From: Candidatus Hydrogenedentota bacterium
Lineage (GTDB): Bacteria; Hydrogenedentota; Hydrogenedentia; Hydrogenedentales; GCA-2746185
Direction: 5' to 3'
Assembly (NCBI GenBank): GCA_947486375.1
Contig: CANKTP010000022.1
Span: 1-33,187 of the forward strand
DNA: 33,187 nt
Below are positions 1,479 to 19,496 of this stretch, piece by piece; within the stretch, counting starts at the first letter, position 1; every line of letters starts with the position of its first letter. Below the pieces are notes generated by a model. It saw nothing but the letters and a program-made list of their open reading frames with translations. It ran no database searches and had not been told where the DNA came from. The position numbers and the translations under genes were made by a program.

Positions 1479-1627
1479 GAAAAAGACCGGAACGCACCGT
1501 GCGCTCCGGCCTGCAAATTGCCACGCCCGGATTGGCGTTCACCGGGACGCATCTTGTTTAGAAGCCCAAGATTGTTACCAACCTTGGGCCTCCGCGGAAG
1601 GAGAAACGCCACATGGTGGCGCTGACC
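1479..1627 (-). ncRNA. Candidate structured small RNA or pyk leader/attenuator
   Basis: Minus strand: consensus-like promoter (TTGCAA-17-TACAAT), 11-bp stem with GUAA tetraloop, GC-rich terminator hairpin followed by U5. G-U wobbles are only compatible with the minus strand. Confidence 0.55.
1480..1511 (-). terminator. Rho-independent terminator hairpin (minus strand)
   Basis: Minus strand GGCCGGAGCGCA-CGG-TGCGTTCCGGTC followed by TTTTT; the stem pairs fully when two G-U wobbles are allowed. Confidence 0.7.
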
Positions 1628-1633
1628 ACCCGC

Positions 1634-1662
1634 ATTGTACCACGGATCTCGCGAAATTGCAA
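1634..1662 (-). promoter_or_regulatory. Sigma70-type promoter, -35 TTGCAA (1657-1662), 17-bp spacer, -10 TACAAT (1634-1639), reading leftward
   Basis: Direct match to the consensus hexamers with optimal spacing. Confidence 0.65.
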
Positions 1663-1710: not shown

Positions 1711-3764
<2,054 letters not shown>

Positions 3765-11228: not shown

Positions 11229-11246
11229 TTATCTTTATCTTTATCT
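11229..11246 (-). repeat. Three tandem copies of hexamer TTATCT (AGATAA on the coding strand)
   Basis: ttatct x3 spanning the stop codon of the 11241-12662 CDS. Confidence 0.9.
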
Positions 11247-12662
11247 TTGGTTGGCCGTCCGGACACGTTCGCTCAGGAGAAGGATGATATTCATCAATAA
11301 CTGAATCGACGCTTCGCTCGAAATCAGGTTGTGAAAAATGTCGTCGCTTAGGCCGACCAGGGTGGCGGGTTCAAGGGCGACCGCGGTGGCGCTTCGGGGT
11401 TCGTCACTGATCCAGGCCATTTCTCCCAGGATGTCGCCGGGTCCAAGGGTGGCAATACGCTTGTCGCCGTCGCGAATGTCCACTTTGCCGGCCAAGACCA
11501 CGTAGAGCTCGTCACTTTGGTCGCCCTTGTTGAAGACGACTTCACCGGCATTGAATTCGGTGGACATGCCGGAAGCGAAGACTTTGGCCACATCGTTGGA
11601 ACTCAGCCCGCGAAATAGTTCCATTCGACGGGTAAGCACTTCGTATGTCTCGCGCATGCTGTCGCGCATGACATCGAGCATTTCTTGCATCATGAAGGAA
11701 GCGGCCGGGACCGAAGGCGCCGGCGCGGGCGGCGCCGCGGCGGCCACTGGCACGACGGTGTCGCCAGTATCCATGAACGCATTCACGATGGAATTCCCGT
11801 CGACGGCCGCGAGCGGCGCGGCATCCGGCTCGAACCGGGCCAGGGGAAGGCCAGCGGCGGCGGGAGCGGATGCGGGCGAAATCGCCTCGATGGGGGCGGG
11901 AATTGGTTCCGCGATGACCGCTTCCGGGGAAGCCGACGCCGTCGAGGTCACTGAAGCCACCGGCGGGGCGGGCGCCGGCGAACTCTTCGGTCTTTCGACC
12001 GACTTCGGCCCGAGCCCAAAATCCGCCGCAGTCATCTCTCGCGGGGCCCCGGTTGGCATTTTTTCGCCGAATAACTTCTTCACCACGGCCTGATAATGGC
12101 TATAGGCGCACAGAATAGGCTTAATCCGCAGCTCGGGGTTCAACTCCCGGATTTTCTCCAAGGCCCTCGAGTCGAGCGGGTTCACCATGGCCACGGTCAA
12201 GTTCTTCGCCAACTTGTCGATCGGCAGCAGTTGGTACTCCAGGCACACCGTCTCGGGAATCAACGAAAACAAGCCCGGATCGATCAGGTAGTCGAGCAGG
12301 CTCAGGTGCGGAATTTTGCACTGTTTCGCAAGGAAGGTAATCAGGGAGTTCTCGTCGAAATATCGCAAATCGACCAGGATTTGACCCAAGAAGCCCCCTT
12401 GCGATTTCTGGACATTGATGGCTTCCTCGAGCTGGCCCTGGCTGATATGCCCCTGTTCGATTAGCACCTCGGCCAGGGAGCGCTGCTCGGGCACGGCTTC
12501 GGGTGCCGCGCGGCGAGGGACCGGTGGGGACGCGGGAGAAACCCCAGGACGAATCCCGCTTCCGGCAGCGACAGAGGCGGCCGGGACAACCGACGGGCGG
12601 GACGGTGCCGGGGCAGGCGCGGCGGCCTCGGGTGTCTTGTCCTTGCCCCACATGATGCGCAT
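11241..12662 (-). CDS. GspE-N/MshEN-like domain + low-complexity linker + cyclic-nucleotide-binding (Crp-like) domain protein
   Basis: N-term SLAEVLIEQGHISQGQLEEAINVQKSQGGFLGQILVDLRYFDENSLITFLAKQCKIPHLSL; C-term FRGLSSNDVAKVFASGMSTEFNAGEVVFNKGDQSDELYVVLAGKVDI...LGPGDILGEMAWISDEPRSATAVALEPATLVGL. Confidence 0.85.
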   Translation of the reverse strand: MRIMWGKDKTPEAAAPAPAPSRPSVVPAASVAAGSGIRPGVSPASPPVPRRAAPEAVPEQRSLAEVLIEQGHISQGQLEEAINVQKSQGGFLGQILVDLRYFDENSLITFLAKQCKIPHLSLLDYLIDPGLFSLIPETVCLEYQLLPIDKLAKNLTVAMVNPLDSRALEKIRELNPELRIKPILCAYSHYQAVVKKLFGEKMPTGAPREMTAADFGLGPKSVERPKSSPAPAPPVASVTSTASASPEAVIAEPIPAPIEAISPASAPAAAGLPLARFEPDAAPLAAVDGNSIVNAFMDTGDTVVPVAAAAPPAPAPSVPAASFMMQEMLDVMRDSMRETYEVLTRRMELFRGLSSNDVAKVFASGMSTEFNAGEVVFNKGDQSDELYVVLAGKVDIRDGDKRIATLGPGDILGEMAWISDEPRSATAVALEPATLVGLSDDIFHNLISSEASIQLLMNIILLLSERVRTANQR

Positions 12663-16341: not shown

Positions 16342-19300
16342 CTATTGCCGCGTGATTGTTTCATCGAGATTGAGAATGATTCGCGCTGTCAGCGTCCATG
16401 CGGCCCACTCGGCCGCATCGTGCTGGGTATCGGCGGCGGTCACGATGGAGGCGGGCGTCAATTCGCCGCCGGCGATTCGTTCGCGTTGCTTCGCGAGAAA
16501 TTGTTCGAGCGCCGCGACTTCTGAATCCTCGGGCGGACGGTTCACGCAGCGGCGGAAGGCGTATTCGATGCGCGAGCGCGTCGTGGCGCCGCCCTCGGCA
16601 AGGGTTCGATCGGCCAGTTGTTTTGCGCATTCGAAGAAGAGCGGCTCGTTCAGCGTCGTCAGCGCCTGAAGCGGCGAATTGCTGCGCGAACGCCGGGTAC
16701 ACGGGGCGTCGCCCGGCGGCGTGTCGAAGGTCTGCAACGCGGGATAAGGCACGCTGCGGAACCTGAACGTGTACAACGCGCGGCGGTATTTGGCGTTCCC
16801 TTGCGCGGTGGTCCATGTCTTCGGTCCGTAGCTCGCGGGCGGCTGGAAGAGATAGTCCGGCGCGGGTGGATATACGCTCGGGCCACCAACGGCCGGATTT
16901 AACAGACCGCTCGCGGCAAGGGCGACGTCGCGCACGGTCTCGCCGTCGACCCGGTACCGTGCGCCCCGCGCGACCAGCGTGTTGTAGGGATCGCGTTCGA
17001 GCATTTCCGGTGTCGACTTCGACGACTGCCGATACGTCGCCGAGGACACGATCAATCGCTGGAGCGCCTTGATGTCCCAATCGGAATCCATGAACTCGAC
17101 CGCGAGCCAATCGAGCAATTCCGGGTGCGAGGGCGCATCGCCCTGGGTGCCGAGGTCGGAGGAGGTGGGCACGATGCCCGTCCCGAAATATTGTTGCCAT
17201 GCTCGATTGACGAAGGCGCGCGCGGTGGTCGGCGATGCCTTTGACACCGTCCACTGTGCGAAGTCCAACCGGCTCGGATTGCCCTTTACGTCCAGTGCAT
17301 GGAGGAATGACGGGACGCCGGGTTCGACCGATTCGGCCGGGCTGAGGAAATCGCCGCGTTCGAGCCGGTGTGTCAGCCGCGGCGTGTCGCGTTCCGCCAA
17401 CACGAGCTGGGTTGCCCCTTGCGGAAGCGCGCGCCGGAGCGCATCGATGCGGTTATTCGCCATCGCGAATTCGGGAAGCGTCGAGCGCCAATGGCTGAAC
17501 AGGGCGCGTTGATCGGCCTCGCTCCGCTTGTCCGGCGCGAGGCCCAAGATCGCCTGGATTTGCGGTGGCAGCACCTTGTCAGGCAGGGTCGCGTCGCCGG
17601 TCACCGAGATTCGGAACCGGCCGAGGTTGTTGTTCTGGTTGTCGTCGCTGTTCTCGCCGCCGTGTTGCTGGCCGAGGCGGAAGGCGAGCATCATTCCGAA
17701 CTCGACCGTGAGCGGTTCCGCGAGCGTGAAGATCGCCGTGTGCGCTTCGTTGCGCCGCTCGGGATCGATGTCCGTGGTCCAGGCCGTCTCCGCCTTGTCG
17801 TCGATGGCCATCTCGATGGGCCCGGTCACGCGGTTCTTCTTGTCGCCGTCGGGATATTCCGGACCAAGGGGCGCCTGCGGCGGATTGATGTCCGCGATAG
17901 CGGAGGCGATCTTCACCTCGCTCCACTTCGAGAAGTCCGCGATCGGCAACGTCTCGGGCCCCACCCGCATCTCGAAATTCGACAGCGCGCTGGTGCCGTA
18001 GACGGATCGTCCCGGGCCGCCCCGCGGAAGGTTCGGATCGGGCAACAGCTCAAGCCGGATGGCCGTGATGCGCGCAAGGTTGACCGTGGCCGTCGCCTTG
18101 GGCTGAAACTGCGTCGGCGCGTAGCCCTGGGCGAGAAACGAACCATCTTCCTGCGGAATGAACTTTTGGCCGCCGTCCGACGAGGCGTCGAAATTGAGCG
18201 CGACCGTTTCCCATTTCGGATTTGGGATGGCCTTCGCCTCCGCTTCCCATTTGGCCATGCGCTCCGGCCAGTCCGTGTTGGCCTCCTTGATGCCCCGCTC
18301 GATCTCGTCGATCAGTGCCGCGATGGCCTCGCGCTGGTTCTCTTCCTCGGGCGAATAGACCGTGATGCAGGACTCGTGCGCGTTGTTGAGAAAGGACAGC
18401 GTACGGTAGTAGTCGGTATGCGTGAGCGGGTCGTATTTGTGTGTGTGGCATTGGGCGCACTGGATGGTCAGGCCGAGCACGGCCCGCCCAATGATGTCCA
18501 TGCGGTTGAACTGCGCCTCCATGCGGAATTGTTCCGGATCGATCCCGCCTTCCTCGTTGATCATGCTGTTGCGCAGGAAGCCGGTGGCCACGCGATCGTC
18601 CTGCGTGGCATTCGGGAGCATGTCGCCCGCGATCTGCTCGACCACGAAACGGTCGTAGGGCATGTTGTCGTTGAAGGCGCCGATCACCCAGTCCCGCCAC
18701 GCGTATACCTGCCGGGGCTTGTCCTTTTCGAAGCCGTCGGAGTCAGCATACTGCGCCGCGTCGAGCCACGCGCGCGCCCAGCGTTCGCCGTAGTGGGGCG
18801 ACGCGAGCAAACGGTCGACATAGGCGGCGTACCAATTCTCGCCATCGGCGGCGATTTGCTTCATGTCGTCGAGCGATGGCGGAAGCCCGGTGAGGTCGAG
18901 GCTGAGGCGACGCGCGAGCGTCTCGCGATCGGCCTCGGGCGAGGGCGCGAGGCCTTCCGATTCGAGACGCTGGAGAACGAAGTTGTCGATGGGATTGCGT
19001 GTCCATGCGGAATTGCTTACGCCGGGAACGACGGGACGTTGCGGGGTCTCGAACGACCAATGGGCCGCATACGACGCGCCCTCGTTTATCCATTGCCGGA
19101 GCAAGGCCACATGTTCCGGCGGCAAGGCGTCGCCTTTCGCCGGCATGCGTTCGTCCGGATCCGTGTGGGTGATGCGTTTGAGGAGTTCGCTCTGGTCCGC
19201 CTTGCCGGGGACGATGACCGCGTGGCCCTCGCGATCGGCGAAGACGTTCTCGGTGGTGTCGAGTCGGAGTTTCGCCTTGCGCGCCTCGTCGTCCGGCCCG

Positions 19301-19434
19301 TGGCACTGGAAACAGTTCTTGCTGAGGATGGGCCGAATCTGGCGGTCATAGGATATCTTGCCGTCGGCCGCGGCAGCGATTGCGGGCAAAACAAGGCCCA
19401 ACGTGCCAGCCAATGCGAGGATTCGAGGGTACAT
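16342..19434 (-). CDS. Planctomycete-type cytochrome c (PSC1) + DUF1549 + DUF1553 protein
   Basis: Signal peptide; YDRQIRPILSKNCFQCHGPDDEARKAKLRLDT; DLTGLPPSLDD; ERWARAWLDAAQYADSDGFEKDKPR; AQCHTHKYDP; RAFVNRAWQQYFGTGIV; RRSRSNSPLQALTTLNEPLF. Start set at internal Met because the ORF-track start (19494) falls next to the -10. Confidence 0.93.
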   Translation of the reverse strand: MYPRILALAGTLGLVLPAIAAAADGKISYDRQIRPILSKNCFQCHGPDDEARKAKLRLDTTENVFADREGHAVIVPGKADQSELLKRITHTDPDERMPAKGDALPPEHVALLRQWINEGASYAAHWSFETPQRPVVPGVSNSAWTRNPIDNFVLQRLESEGLAPSPEADRETLARRLSLDLTGLPPSLDDMKQIAADGENWYAAYVDRLLASPHYGERWARAWLDAAQYADSDGFEKDKPRQVYAWRDWVIGAFNDNMPYDRFVVEQIAGDMLPNATQDDRVATGFLRNSMINEEGGIDPEQFRMEAQFNRMDIIGRAVLGLTIQCAQCHTHKYDPLTHTDYYRTLSFLNNAHESCITVYSPEEENQREAIAALIDEIERGIKEANTDWPERMAKWEAEAKAIPNPKWETVALNFDASSDGGQKFIPQEDGSFLAQGYAPTQFQPKATATVNLARITAIRLELLPDPNLPRGGPGRSVYGTSALSNFEMRVGPETLPIADFSKWSEVKIASAIADINPPQAPLGPEYPDGDKKNRVTGPIEMAIDDKAETAWTTDIDPERRNEAHTAIFTLAEPLTVEFGMMLAFRLGQQHGGENSDDNQNNNLGRFRISVTGDATLPDKVLPPQIQAILGLAPDKRSEADQRALFSHWRSTLPEFAMANNRIDALRRALPQGATQLVLAERDTPRLTHRLERGDFLSPAESVEPGVPSFLHALDVKGNPSRLDFAQWTVSKASPTTARAFVNRAWQQYFGTGIVPTSSDLGTQGDAPSHPELLDWLAVEFMDSDWDIKALQRLIVSSATYRQSSKSTPEMLERDPYNTLVARGARYRVDGETVRDVALAASGLLNPAVGGPSVYPPAPDYLFQPPASYGPKTWTTAQGNAKYRRALYTFRFRSVPYPALQTFDTPPGDAPCTRRSRSNSPLQALTTLNEPLFFECAKQLADRTLAEGGATTRSRIEYAFRRCVNRPPEDSEVAALEQFLAKQRERIAGGELTPASIVTAADTQHDAAEWAAWTLTARIILNLDETITRQ

Positions 19435-19496
19435 TGCGCGCAATCCAGAAACTCCCTGAAGAATCGACCTGTACTGTCCAATAGGAACGATCACCC

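Follow-up and report, generated by a model that had tools for sequence, protein, structure and literature searches.

Results

A probably Hfq-independent small RNA candidate upstream of pyk

The stretch of Hydrogenedentota DNA analysed here (the window, 33,187 nucleotides) carries on its minus strand, upstream of the pyruvate kinase gene pyk, what we are highly confident is a real, stand-alone RNA gene, judging from its promoter, its terminator and its homologues. Our best reading of the sequence is that the RNA represents a new small RNA (sRNA) family with a Yfr1-like architecture, and on balance we favour a role in trans, in which it would block the Shine-Dalgarno (SD) regions of a restricted group of mRNAs without Hfq. 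Gene boundaries, structure, conservation and the absence of an Hfq match were established computationally, and the parts of the locus are as follows.

1627-1480, minus: RNA gene upstream of pyk; behind the promoter come a 5' hairpin, the unpaired UCUCCUUCCGC, a second hairpin, a 3' extension and the terminator
1634-1662, minus: promoter, with -35 TTGCAA (1662-1657), 17-nt spacer and extended -10 TG-G-TACAAT
1642-1641 and 1639-1634, minus: TG and hexamer TACAAT of the extended -10
1627, minus: predicted transcription start, from promoter spacing; sequence conservation starts here with GGUCA
1605-1623, minus: hairpin 1, 8 bp, AGCGCCAC/GUGGCGUU, loop CAU (folding; pairs kept despite changes among homologues)
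1594-1604, minus: linker UCUCCUUCCGC, the unpaired invariant core and proposed seed, complementary to the SD type GGAAGGAGA
1560-1593, minus: hairpin 2, 15 bp (1593-1579 with 1574-1560), GUAA loop (folding, homologues)
1513-1559, minus: 3' extension, specific to the long form and corresponding to the CUCUAAAAUAACUCGCGG box and hairpin 3 of family f4 (in this copy a folding prediction only)
1480-1512, minus: intrinsic terminator, a 13-bp GC-rich hairpin (1512-1484) and U-run (1484-1480)
3-1262, minus: pyk (PF00224, E=3.7e-127), the downstream neighbour, which runs off the window
1711-2625, plus: divergent upstream gene, L-amino acid ligase/ATP-grasp type C-terminal domain (PF18603)

The promoter TTGCAA-N17-TACAAT, the 5' hairpin GCGCCAC-CAU-GUGGCGU and the GC-rich terminator hairpin with its U-run all lie where the initial annotation had described them, the promoter having an extended -10 TG in addition. 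The stem closed by the GUAA loop is also present, but the 11 bp claimed for it fell short of the 15 pairs found. Elsewhere in the window, also on the minus strand, are a large protein with Planctomycete-type cytochrome c (PSCyt1), PSCyt2 and PSD1 domains (16342-19494) and a protein with an MshEN domain and a cyclic nucleotide-binding domain (11241-12662).

Folding and covariation support the structure and the strand

The whole element folds at -84.1 kcal/mol, compared with -59.6 +/- 4.1 for dinucleotide shuffles (z = -6.0; none of 200 shuffles was equally stable), and the opposite strand reaches a z-score of only -3.0 against such shuffles. The strand had originally been assigned from stem positions that are G-U wobbles on the minus strand but A-C mismatches on the plus strand, and this argument is borne out by the homologues: 37 of 48 sequences have G-U at one stem pair, which would be a mismatch if read on the other strand. 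Since the output of a consensus scan of the window did not list the terminator, the case for the element rests on folding and conservation.

Aligning 48 copies gave support for a hairpin 1 of 7 bp and a hairpin 2 of 13-14 bp. The stems are paired in 95.1% of alignment cells (95.8% for hairpin 1, which has changes among homologues), and pairing falls to about 40-52% when the partners are slid against each other. Ten pairs have double-sided changes, amounting to 76 cells against a shuffle mean of 21.3, a value that none of 500 shuffles reached. Covariation among relatives, which the initial annotation had named, together with a matching transcript, as support for the element, is strong in both stems.

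The RNA gene has its own promoter and terminator and varied neighbours

All 58 Hydrogenedentota copies with upstream sequence have an extended -10 at the equivalent place (2.6% in shuffles), 54 of them with TTG in the -35 zone and 52 with a distance of 25 nt between the -10 and the core. A hairpin followed by a T-rich tail ends the RNA in nearly all copies. Hairpin 2 is itself the terminator in most families, the T-rich tail following it directly in 39 of 61 classified copies; in the window it is followed by CUAAACAA, with no U-run. In about 20 copies, mainly those of family f4 and that of the window, the RNA takes a long form that adds a CUCUAAAAUAACUCGCGG box and a third hairpin and terminates later; the copies were sorted by a simple rule that left two spurious entries among the 24 classed as 'long/other'. 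Examples are the f4 loci L062, L086 and L111 and window positions 1559-1480, among which the CUCUAAAAUAACUCGCGG box is conserved.

The neighbours vary from genome to genome: in 21 entries the upstream gene is glpK, on the same strand, in 11 a convergent MnmE lies downstream, and a gene of the type found at 1711-2625 also adjoins the RNA in some relatives (a neighbour cluster with L052, L081 and L087). The downstream gene is mostly convergent in the homologous loci, and among the genomes examined pyk follows the RNA in the window only. These neighbours were called approximately, as the longest open frame, and glpK, MnmE, FtsH and the like were named from protein sequence. Between the two options that the initial annotation had left standing, a stand-alone sRNA and a terminating leader or riboswitch of pyk, the promoter, the terminator and the varied, mostly convergent neighbours speak for the former.

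About ten of the roughly sixty copies are preceded by sequences resembling TGTAAACA, where shuffling predicts 0.5. Some are palindromic (L100, L102), one lies upstream of L094, and the window has TTGTTTACACAA at 1698-1687 on the minus strand, upstream of the promoter. They are possibly sites of a transcription factor; because the enrichment partly reflects shared descent, we treat it as a lead only.

Distribution

When the element was compared by BLAST with 60 relatives, most matched at E < 1e-7, the matches being confined to the 5' 40-84 nt. The 21-mer GCGTTTCTCCTTCCGCGGAGG is found exactly in most of the 60, once or twice per genome, whereas its reversed control is found in almost none. In 84,980 species genomes the 19-mer GTTTCTCCTTCCGCGGAGG occurs in 56 stretches, nearly all of which are labelled Hydrogenedentota or placed in the window's order by the kinship table, some Hydrogenedentota carriers bearing another record label (L073, for example, is G054). 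The exceptions are one Actinacidiphila (L069) and two Patescibacteria (L088, L089); we regard the Actinacidiphila match, which lies in a repeated GC-rich stretch with neither promoter nor terminator, as chance. Apart from the two Patescibacteria, in which the architecture is complete, the exact 19-mer core is thus all but restricted to Hydrogenedentota. No viral contig with the 19-mer was found.

A covariance model of the RNA (R1; strong match, E < 1e-14) detects it in 58 of 68 Hydrogenedentota genomes (~85%), with one or two copies each. The 70 strong matches are set off by a wide gap from the next, a single partial match at 0.004. Most of the genomes used are fragmented assemblies, and those in which R1 finds no copy are all four of family f6, both of genus g22 and four others that are 78-88% complete; the absence from every f6 and g22 genome suggests loss.

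The two Patescibacteria copies score about 1e-12 to 1e-13 with R1 and have common neighbours, a DoxX-like gene upstream and FtsH downstream, for which reason they are probably not contamination. Weak matches in 286 and 247 other sampled Patescibacteria included none with the architecture. Transfer of the RNA between Hydrogenedentota and Patescibacteria appears likely from these sequences.

The core between the hairpins is invariant

While the stems vary, all 61 distinct copies share TTTCTCCTTCCGC without a single change. Part of this invariance could reflect ascertainment, since the copies were gathered by searches that used the TTTCTCCTTCCGC motif; a counterweight to this worry is that R1 tolerates changes and its strong matches nevertheless also carry the linker, with no intermediate matches. 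The invariant block of ~20 nt takes in stem bases, GGCGU and GGAGG. In one genome the two paralogues of locus L013 have different first hairpins (GCGCCACATGTGGC and GCGCCGGTAACGGC) and the same linker. A search for sibling RNAs presenting the seed on another scaffold gave five extra 14-mer matches, none flanked by hairpins, and these were set aside.

Search for mRNA targets

The complement of the linker is GCGGAAGGAGAA. In 68 genomes, an exact 12-mer complement followed by ATG occurs at a few dozen non-self places, compared with about six for the control; the start codons in question belong to assorted, unrelated genes, and no conserved mRNA target emerged among the 68. A complement precedes tsf in two genomes of one genus, and gpsA and an HU-like gene are single cases, the three names having been read from sequence and the gene calls in these target tests being crude. 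Of 11 cases of glpK, the commonest neighbour, only 3 show a complementary stretch of 9-11 nt.

For ribosome-binding sites (RBS) in bulk we sampled 400 kb of G018, 200 kb each of G026 and G008, and ~370 kb of genomes without the RNA. The G018, G026 and G008 stretches gave no excess of long linker matches over flank-permuted controls, so that if the RNA pairs with mRNAs, it would do so with a limited set only. In the same sampling, RBS of the AAGGAG type were far commoner in RNA-less f6 genomes (G017, G010, G022) than in the three RNA carriers; G032, also without the RNA, shows no such excess.

Known RNA families and RNA-binding proteins

No Rfam 15 family reaches its gathering cut-off in the window, and relaxing the limit to E = 10 brings no match within the element. 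The best of the weak matches, to isrK, falls beyond the element (plus strand, 1396-1466) and scores 20.8 bits, the cut-off being 50; it is taken as chance. Hfq (PF17209) was found in none of the 68 Hydrogenedentota genomes, in a search whose positive controls worked. CsrA is present in 45 of the 68; it is missing from nearly all family f10 genomes searched and present in most other families.

Discussion

From the features above we infer transcription of the gene, pairing with mRNA as its mechanism, repression, and the kind of target. RNA polymerase would start at about 1627 from the gene's own promoter and stop at about 1480 at the terminator. The transcript would then measure ~148 nt in the window, and in most relatives ~75-80 nt. 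Two stable hairpins would keep the pyrimidine-rich UCUCCUUCCGC open between them. Like the anti-Shine-Dalgarno (anti-SD) sequence of 16S rRNA, with which it has CUCCUU in common, this linker could then pair with SD sequences of the GGAAGGAGA type in a few mRNAs, and the pairing would block ribosome binding with no need for Hfq. Such pairing with SD regions is in our estimate the most likely mechanism, held with somewhat better than even confidence. Set beside anti-SD sRNAs as a class, the RNA has, by sequence, a stand-alone gene with its own promoter and terminator as well as an exposed, conserved segment complementary to the SD; for the repression of specific mRNAs there are candidate sites only, with neither a conserved target nor a genome-wide enrichment.

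The closest known counterpart is Yfr1, an established sRNA found phylum-wide, with two hairpins, an unpaired ultraconserved core containing CUCCU and a 3' hairpin terminator (PMC2190773). The present RNA is likewise short, with one hairpin 5' of the unpaired core, which also contains CUCCU, and a terminator hairpin 3' of it; in both RNAs the stems vary around an invariant core, and both are spread throughout one phylum with few losses. The second of the two hairpins is the terminator in most families here, as in Yfr1, whereas in the window and in f4 this role falls to a later hairpin, some families thus having an extra hairpin and a later terminator unlike Yfr1. The cores also differ, ACUCCUCACAC in Yfr1 and UCUCCUUCCGC in all copies here, and Yfr1 is confined to cyanobacteria, the present RNA to Hydrogenedentota and the two Patescibacteria. 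NfeR1, an Hfq-independent anti-SD sRNA, represses by occluding the ribosome-binding site (PMC10746234); the alphaproteobacterial NfeR1/alpha-r14 RNAs likewise display an ultraconserved, unpaired anti-SD motif on variable stems, but they do so on three hairpins each with CCUCCUCCC, in contrast to the one UCUCCUUCCGC linker between hairpins found here. The SisA-D group of Caulobacter, of which SisA carries an anti-SD 10-mer (PMC12559287), is a sibling group in another phylum. As the sequence fits neither Yfr1 nor NfeR1, we assign the RNA to a new sRNA family.

The most serious competing explanation, to which we give distinctly less credence, is that the stand-alone RNA uses its invariant core to bind a protein or the ribosome, as a sponge or structural RNA, with no antisense pairing. 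Variable mRNA targets would not call for a block of ~20 nt, stem bases included, to stay invariant, nor would pairing with many diverse mRNAs demand such strictness over the whole block; the failure of any conserved mRNA target to emerge points the same way. On the other side, the linker is rich in pyrimidines and complementary to the SD, and base-pairing is how Yfr1, whose core is equally invariant, works. A sponge for CsrA is unlikely, many f10 genomes carrying the RNA without CsrA. As to a ribosomal partner, the 3' end of 16S rRNA in three genomes reads ...GGATCACCTCCTTTCT, and pairing of the linker with 16S rRNA is weaker than that of most shuffled seeds. A more far-reaching account, which we consider improbable, though worth stating, is that of an ancient core RNA of Hydrogenedentota, with at least one transfer involving Patescibacteria, whose ~20-nt block is fixed by a single invariant protein or ribosomal partner; if true, the RNA would constitute a new functional class among bacterial RNAs.

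Control of pyk by the element as a terminating leader or riboswitch is very unlikely. In the window pyk does lie downstream on the same strand, ~215 nt past the terminator, but the varied neighbours, and the fact that pyk is the downstream gene in none of the other genomes examined, argue strongly against a general pyk leader, and the downstream gene in relatives is usually convergent. Tandem copies such as those at L013 do not suit a single leader either. The switch-like refolding proposed in the initial annotation, with the 5' hairpin pairing instead to a GCGUGGC further downstream, is not conserved: short-form homologues stop before that sequence, and long forms differ there. We judge pyk not to be part of the RNA's function.

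A small coding gene is scarcely credible, whether opened by the AUG of hairpin 1 (MWRFSFRGG...) or, on the other strand, by GGAAGGAGAAACGCCACATG as SD and start. The AUG is present in many copies, the window's included; it is lost in L015, L024, copy 2 of L013 and L059, which retain the RNA structure, the frame past the core is not conserved, and that on the other strand comprises three codons. A divergent 6S RNA, also a stand-alone gene running from promoter to terminator and near the long form in length, can be dismissed: the search of the locus for RF00013 that had been suggested gave no match even at E = 10, the structure is a row of hairpins and not one long bulged stem, and the window's genome has a separate 6S RNA gene (G000:C39:20437-20620, E=1.7e-14), as one of 45 among the 68 Hydrogenedentota genomes with a 6S RNA.

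Returning to the preferred reading, an anti-SD sRNA acting in trans, we found no description of this RNA in the openly licensed literature, nor of any small RNA from Hydrogenedentota in the part of it searched. The RNA family is absent from Rfam; about 85% of the genomes of this uncultured phylum carry it. The two Patescibacteria copies with the same neighbours invite the question whether a regulatory RNA has passed from one phylum to another. The Yfr1 design would now be seen in a second, distant phylum without detectable Hfq, which suggests that this design may have arisen repeatedly.
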